Shown here: piece after piece, positions 41,528 to 51,145 of the stretch
Layout: every line of letters starts with the position of its first letter
How positions within the stretch are numbered: position 1 is the first letter of the stretch
NCBI GenBank assembly: GCA_005879315.1
Contig: VBLC01000070.1
Span: forward strand, 1 to 63,453
Source of the DNA: Deltaproteobacteria bacterium
Lineage (GTDB): Bacteria > Myxococcota > Myxococcia > Myxococcales > 40CM-4-68-19
Reading direction: 5' to 3'
DNA length: 63,453 bases
Position numbers and translations under genes: made by a program
Notes under the pieces: generated by a model
Told to the model about the DNA's origin: nothing
Database searches by the model: none
What the model saw: only the letters and a program-made list of their open reading frames with translations

Positions 41528-41752
41528 ATGATTACCATCAAGTACTGCAATTCGTGAGGATACAAGCCCCGGGCTGTCCGTGCGGCGGCCGCTCTGGAGA
41601 AGGAGCTGCGGGTGAAGGCCGAGATCGAGGTCGGCCCGACCGGCAGCTTCATCGTCGACGTCGACGGCGAGGTGGTGGCGGAGAAGGGCGAGCGCGGGTT
41701 TCCCAGCGAGGAGGAAATCGTCGACGCCGTGCGCAGGAAAGTGCGGCGCTGA
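41528..41752 (+). CDS. SelT/SelW/SelH (Rdx) family selenoprotein
   Basis: 74 codons with TGA at 41555-41557 read as selenocysteine (residue 10): MITIKYCNS-U-GYKPRAVRA, giving the CxxU redox motif at Cys7/Sec10. The rest fits the thioredoxin-like Rdx family: ALEKELRVKAEIEVGPTGSF, IVDVDGEVVAEKGERGFPS and EEEIVDAVRRKV. A hairpin directly after the TGA (41558-41579) is a candidate bacterial SECIS. The family is about 75-95 residues, so length is right. Redox protein of unknown substrate. Ordinary gene finders split or miss it. The genome must carry selA-D for this to be made, unseen here. Confidence 0.88.
41558..41579 (+). promoter_or_regulatory. Candidate bacterial SECIS hairpin (SelW-like gene)
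   Basis: Immediately after the TGA, GGAtACAaGCC pairs with GGCTGTCC to give a GC-rich stem with two bulged bases and a small C/G loop. Position right behind the Sec codon fits bacterial SECIS placement; the loop was not tested against SelB preference. Confidence 0.6.
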
Positions 41753-50015: not shown

Positions 50016-50061
50016 TCGAATGGACAAGCGAGACGCTCGACGGCGGAGTTACAATGCGTGC

Positions 50062-50670
50062 ATGGCGACGCTCCGTCTCTATTCCGATTTCGTCTGACCG
50101 TTCTGCTTCGTCGCGGAGCAGAGCAGCCTGGTCAGGCTCTTGAAAGAGTACCAACTCTCCTTCGACTGGCGCGGCTTCGAGCTGCACCCGGAGACGCCCG
50201 AGGGCGGCATCGAGATGTCGCGCCGCTTCGGGGCGCGCGCCGAGCAGATGCGCGACCGGATCACGCAGTTCGCCGCCTCTTTCGGCGTTCACGACCTGAA
50301 TCATCCGGAGCGGCTGCCCAACACGCGCCGCGCGCTGGCGATCGGCGAGCTGGCGCGCGACCGCGGGCTGCTTCATCCCTATCGCGAATCGGCCATGCAA
50401 GCGCATTGGCGCGACGGAATGGATCTGGAGAAGGACAAGGACCTGGCCGCGATCGCCCGCCGCGCCGGGCTTGATCCAGGCGAAGCCCTCGCCGCCAGCC
50501 GCGACCCGGCGTATCTCAAGCGCATCGACGCCATCCGCGAGGAGGCGCATGCGCTCGGCGTGGACGGGATTCCGACCTTCGTGTTCAGCGGCGACACCGC
50601 CGTCGTTGGATGCCAGCCTTACCCGATCCTCGCCGGCGCCGCCGAAGAAGCCGGCGCGCAAAAAAAATGA
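50062..50670 (+). CDS. DsbA-family selenoprotein with UxxC active site
   Basis: 202 codons starting ATG 50062 with in-frame TGA at 50095-50097 (residue 12): ATLRLYSDFV-U-PFCFVAEQSS. Ordinary DsbA/FrnE-type proteins have CPxC at exactly this place, so TGA replaces the first active-site Cys, giving Sec12-Pro-Phe-Cys15. The rest is complete: helical insertion with FDWRGFELHPETPEGGI, and GVDGIPTFVFSGDTAVVGCQP carrying the cis-Pro loop. Closest relatives are the 2-hydroxychromene isomerase/FrnE polyketide-type group. A hairpin follows the TGA. Starting instead after it would remove the active site, so a non-selenium reading is poor. Confidence 0.87.
50102..50122 (+). promoter_or_regulatory. Candidate bacterial SECIS hairpin (DsbA-family gene)
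   Basis: TCTGCTTCG (50102-50110) pairs with CGGAGCAGA (50114-50122) with one G-T wobble, leaving a TCG apical loop, starting four bases after the TGA. Both size and position fit a bacterial SECIS. Confidence 0.6.
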
Positions 50671-50722: not shown

Positions 50723-51145
50723 CTAGTAGCGCGCGCCGTATGTCGCGGCCGGGGGAGCGAAGCCCGTCGGTCGCACGTCCGCCACCGGTCCGGTGAAGGT
50801 TCGGTCGCCATTCGCTGCGTCGACCGCTCCGAAGAGCAAGCCGGCCGCGAGACCGATCCCCGCGCCGATGGCCACGTCGCGCTGCCAGTTGCCCCAGTTC
50901 TTCGGGGTGGTGGTCTCGTGCCGGTAGAGCGCCACACCGCCGCCGACCGCTGCGCCCAACACCGCGCCGCCGATGGCGTCGCCGAGGATCACCCCGGCGG
51001 TGTTGCGGGGCTGGCTCTGGACTTCGACCACCTCGGCAGGGAGCGCCGTCCTCACCGCACCGGTCTTCTGGATCTCGCTGGCGGCGCGCGCTGGGACCGC
51101 AAGACCGAGCGCGAGTGCGGCCGCGAGAAGAGTCGCCTTGAGCAT
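50723..51145 (-). CDS. Secreted glycine-zipper-like protein
   Basis: 140 residues with signal peptide ending ARAAS. Two Gly/Ala-rich hydrophobic segments (VILGDAIGGAVLGAAVGGGV and AIGAGIGLAAGLLFGAV) have glycine-zipper spacing, so it may sit in the outer membrane. Strong AAAGGAGG five bases before the ATG. Function unknown. Confidence 0.78.
   Translation of the reverse strand: MLKATLLAAALALGLAVPARAASEIQKTGAVRTALPAEVVEVQSQPRNTAGVILGDAIGGAVLGAAVGGGVALYRHETTTPKNWGNWQRDVAIGAGIGLAAGLLFGAVDAANGDRTFTGPVADVRPTGFAPPAATYGARY

Follow-up and report, generated by a model that had tools for sequence, protein, structure and literature searches.

A predicted selenocysteine-containing FrnE/DsbA-type oxidoreductase and its SECIS hairpin in a myxobacterial genome

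The window (the whole stretch of 63,453 nucleotides analysed here) almost certainly encodes a selenocysteine-containing FrnE/DsbA-type oxidoreductase, with a UGA codon that is predicted from sequence to be decoded by SelB via a GGUC hairpin. The first-pass annotation had proposed that selenocysteine (Sec) replaces the first active-site Cys, which the reading frame bears out: the TGA is located in frame and in the same alignment column as the Cys of homologs. Read-through gives a protein starting MATLRLYSDFVUPFCFVAEQ, and a normal TGA stop terminates the ORF; a further in-frame ATG is found at 50020. Besides Sec12, the product contains only Cys15 and Cys184. Standard annotation would lead to the gene being either truncated or skipped. 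The features discussed are collected in Table 1.

Table 1. Positions of the predicted features in the window.
Feature	Position	Strand	Basis
Predicted Sec-containing FrnE/DsbA-like ORF	50062..50670	+	202 aa, UPFC motif, PF01323 profile
Predicted UGA codon for selenocysteine, residue 12	50095..50097	+	column of nucleophilic Cys in homologs
TGC codon, second motif Cys (Cys15)	50104..50106	+	invariant in alignment
9-bp stem, 50102-50110 with 50114-50122	50102..50122	+	folding of window sequence
Predicted conserved SECIS core hairpin, AGCCU-GGUC-AGGCU	50125..50138	+	folding, codon constraint, bacterial SECIS rules
Pro171, predicted cis-Pro of thioredoxin fold (GIPTF)	50572..50574	+	invariant in alignment A3
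Third Cys, Cys184 (VVGCQPY)	50611..50613	+	alignment
SelW-like Rdx selenoprotein candidate, CNSU (CxxU)	41528..41752	+	TIGR02174, PF10262; TGA at 41555-41557

PF01323 matches the read-through protein with 103.4 bits (cut-off 25.6). Among solved structures, the protein is closest in sequence to Deinococcus radiodurans FrnE (5cnw, 1.8e-16) and SCO1869. An AlphaFold2 model derived from 43 homologs has a pLDDT of 97.5 and a pTM of 0.92. Foldseek places FrnE structures first (5xwh, E 9e-15, TM 0.87), with kappa-class glutathione transferase and 2-hydroxychromene-2-carboxylate (HCCA) isomerase as weaker matches. The DsbA/FrnE assignment made earlier thus stands, with FrnE the best match by sequence as well as by fold. 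The transferase and the isomerase share the same overall fold, but the UxxC/CxxC redox motif seen here points to thiol-disulfide exchange rather than to transferase or isomerase activity. In the model, residue 12 comes after strand 1, at the start of the active-site helix; Pro171 is presumably cis by analogy to the family. As the ATG at 50062 runs straight into strand 1, there is no room for a signal peptide, and the model suggests a cytosolic location.

The closest characterised protein, D. radiodurans FrnE (DR_0659; 5cnw, 5xwh), has a CP(W/F)C site on a cytosolic DsbA fold, whereas the window protein has Sec for the first Cys. The C-terminal CX4C of D. radiodurans FrnE has been proposed to regenerate the active site (PMC8945050). 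This CXXXXC feature is absent from the window protein, which instead has Cys184 past the last strand; the feature is not obligatory in the subfamily, being found in many but not all FrnE proteins (PMC8945050). In the UPFC clade, Cys184 is found in most proteins, whether they have Sec or Cys at residue 12; as it follows directly on the last strand, it could conceivably serve as a resolving residue.

When 145 genomes of the order were searched in six frames, most close homologs (50-63% identity) turned out to have this TGA as their only internal stop. Inspected codon by codon, 24 UPFC-clade genes (that of the window and 23 others) have the TGA in one shared column, and a phylum-wide search added a Sec copy from outside the order (L179). 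A search of relatives for the same TGA, suggested in the first-pass annotation, hence returned 23 further clade copies in the order and one elsewhere in the phylum. In the alignment with DsbA/FrnE proteins, the Cys of CP(W/F)C falls in the TGA column and the second Cys is retained. About ten close relatives, interspersed with the Sec forms, have TGC or TGT at this column; the scan for related loci was run with the Cys version of the motif and so retrieved Cys homologs. Two UPFC-type Sec-FrnE genes (L022 and L176) occur together in one genome of the order (G040).

No conserved operon was found in the flanks searched (about 1.5 kb for most loci), which have no shared neighbours. The window gene is preceded by genes for an aminotransferase and an Lrp-type regulator; neither these nor the downstream genes occur beside any relative within the same flanks. 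A small convergent gene (50723-51145, minus strand) encodes a glycine-rich protein with a weak TraT-like profile match, below cut-off.

Two hairpins are formed downstream of the UGA upon folding of the window sequence. Judged by conservation, the SECIS element is the GGUC hairpin at 50125-50138, as opposed to the 9-bp stem put forward in the first-pass annotation. Its loop (50130-50133) is located 32 nt past the UGA on a core stem of 5 bp, and a 7-bp form of the hairpin is 99% paired among Sec homologs. Since the element is near-invariant, little covariation can be tested, and the evidence consists of synonymous constraint. Ser, Leu and Arg are each specified by six codons and Val by four. Codons 22-25 (AGC CTG GTC AGG) are nevertheless identical in all 23 of the 23 Sec genes counted, while most other equally conserved amino acids with four or six codons vary in codon among these genes. 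AGG makes up 43 of the 549 Arg codons in this set, with 23 of the 43 at the hairpin site, and accounts for ~4% of Arg codons elsewhere in the same genes. Cys homologs have CGN at this site and never AGG. Within a sister pair grouped with 100/100 support, GTC AGG in the Sec form (L034) corresponds to CGC CGG in the Cys form (L036), and the hairpin is lost in the latter.

A published model of bacterial SECIS elements provides rules on loop, G position, spacing (16-37 nt from the UGA) and free energy (-7.5 kcal/mol or lower) (PMC13188914). The GGUC hairpin agrees with this model in loop, G position and spacing. On its own, the 21-nt element reaches -7.1 kcal/mol, slightly short of the -7.5 threshold, and the 51 nt from the UGA fold at -22.2 kcal/mol. 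The window copy of the hairpin has a mismatch in the lower stem. Rfam at gathering thresholds gave no match within the window.

A lack of Sec machinery in the genome had been named as grounds for rejecting the proposal, and this concern is now mostly answered. SelA, SelB and SelD are encoded in the same genome, all over curated cut-offs, and the active site of SelD (L156; G000:C78:31788-32720, minus strand) also contains an in-frame TGA (GSGUACK). The part that does not fall into place is tRNA-Sec, which was not found in the draft assembly (125 contigs, 97.55% complete) using the Rfam model, an anticodon-loop pattern, ARAGORN on the best Rfam hits or BLAST with a congener gene. The tRNA is present in four of six congeners with scores above 70 bits, and the three of these that were checked with ARAGORN were all called tRNA-SeC. 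In one congener (G002) the tRNA-Sec copy lies 23 bases from a contig end. When the flank of a congener selC was traced in the window's own genome, only one flanking gene matched, at 69%, with no tRNA beside it. The selC loci of the congeners have little in common apart from selC, and synteny is therefore no guide to where the gap lies. It is likely that the absence of tRNA-Sec reflects a gap in the 125-contig assembly.

A second selenoprotein within the same 10 kb had also been suggested. This is supported by the SelW-like CxxU ORF at 41528-41752, which exceeds the TIGR02174 cut-off of 34.2 with 46.5 bits. Single-sequence folding revealed no convincing SECIS past its TGA, the hairpin there being weak (z = +1.07).

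Other explanations of the internal TGA have to be weighed against these data. A sequencing or assembly error, or a pseudogene cut by a true stop, would be compatible with a draft source of 125 contigs, but is scarcely credible given that the TGA recurs in about two dozen copies from other genomes without any other internal stop. Several of the TGA-bearing genomes are single-contig, and assembly error is therefore excluded. Furthermore, the 50-63% protein identity persists past the TGA, and the read-through protein is modelled as one domain. Because the TGA is conserved in relatives, resequencing is very unlikely to yield a Cys codon at 50095-50097, the outcome that would have undone the original proposal. 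Decoding of the UGA as an amino acid other than Sec, by a reassigned code or by near-cognate or Cys misincorporation, could be argued from the lack of a tRNA-Sec gene in the assembly, yet is also highly improbable. The Sec-FrnE gene and the SelW-like gene both have TGA as their own terminator, which argues against reassignment. The presence of selA, selB and selD likewise opposes such a reading, as does a hairpin kept only with the TGA, which fits decoding by SelB.

Within the Sec interpretation, the 9-bp stem that begins four bases past the UGA is an unlikely candidate for the functional SECIS, though less unlikely than either of the above readings. This stem folds strongly in the window sequence, as the first-pass annotation had observed, but it is not a conserved element. 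An extended 11-bp form of the helix has 80% of cells paired in 14 distinct Sec sequences, with no compensatory change. Comparable stems follow the Cys codons of Cys homologs (L027, L031, L073 and L075). At ~12-13 nt, its loop is also closer to the UGA than the 16-37 nt that the bacterial model allows (PMC13188914). The stem may act as a spacer or helper to the GGUC hairpin.

Separate Sec-FrnE lineages with a UPWC motif (L158-L173) occur in the same order and have their TGA at the same column. These belong to the same family as the window protein at ~27-36% identity, without a Cys at the Cys184 position. The UPWC hairpin differs from that of the UPFC clade, with its loop at ~+21 rather than ~+33 from the UGA. 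It shows 100% pairing with both-sided changes in five of seven pairs, a covariation score reached in none of 500 shuffles. This different, covarying hairpin is mildly new. A tree of 53 proteins requires at least five changes between Sec and Cys.

As the UPWC lineages carry a different hairpin nearer the UGA, either separate Sec gains or SECIS turnover is suggested. Our tentative reading, held at somewhat under an even chance, is that FrnE of this order gained Sec at least twice with unrelated hairpins, followed in each lineage by repeated switching between Sec and Cys and decay of the hairpin after Sec loss. The alternative to separate gains is turnover of the SECIS from a single Sec ancestor. 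Other genomes of the window's genus were found to contain no UPFC-type copy, their TGA copies being of the UPWC type. This may reflect acquisition of the window gene, or its retention alongside loss elsewhere in the genus.

The protein is proposed to carry out thiol-disulfide exchange in the cytosol, using Sec as its nucleophile. In this mechanism, the UGA at 50095 would be read as Sec by SelB with Sec-tRNA, with insertion directed by AGCCU-GGUC-AGGCU, which starts 27 nt downstream within the coding sequence. The Sec12 selenolate would then attack substrate disulfides, or would be oxidised and hand the oxidation on. The mixed selenylsulfide is presumably resolved by Cys15, after which a cellular thiol system would re-reduce the Se-S bond so formed. 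The low potential put forward in the first-pass annotation is an expectation from chemistry, beyond what a sequence can reveal: a Sec-Cys pair would reasonably have a redox potential below that of the Cys form. The TGA and its conservation, the constraint on the RNA, the predicted fold and the genes selA, selB and selD are evident from sequence; we infer Sec insertion, the chemistry, the substrate, the partner and any role of Cys184; beyond the fold, the mechanism draws on analogy to FrnE and on general selenocysteine chemistry.

The window gene belongs to a kind of selenoprotein predicted since 2005-2006. UxxC DsbA-like selenoproteins were reported in a 2005 study on the Sargasso Sea (PMC1088965), and a 2006 list gives one for Anaeromyxobacter dehalogenans (PMC1794560). 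The DsbA-like form 1 is also found in a 2008 paper (PMC2398784), and current tables give PF01323 and UxxC (PMC13188914, 2026). PF01323 membership, the UxxC motif, a bacterial-type hairpin past the UGA and common Cys homologs are all as seen here, and there is no difference in kind from the window protein when compared by published description as opposed to sequences. The present work contributes a set of firmly supported Sec-FrnE genes to the DsbA-like selenoprotein family and corrects the location of the SECIS. Furthermore, close Sec/Cys sister pairs such as L034/L036 allow one to ask what benefit selenium brings to a probably cytosolic enzyme of the DsbA fold.
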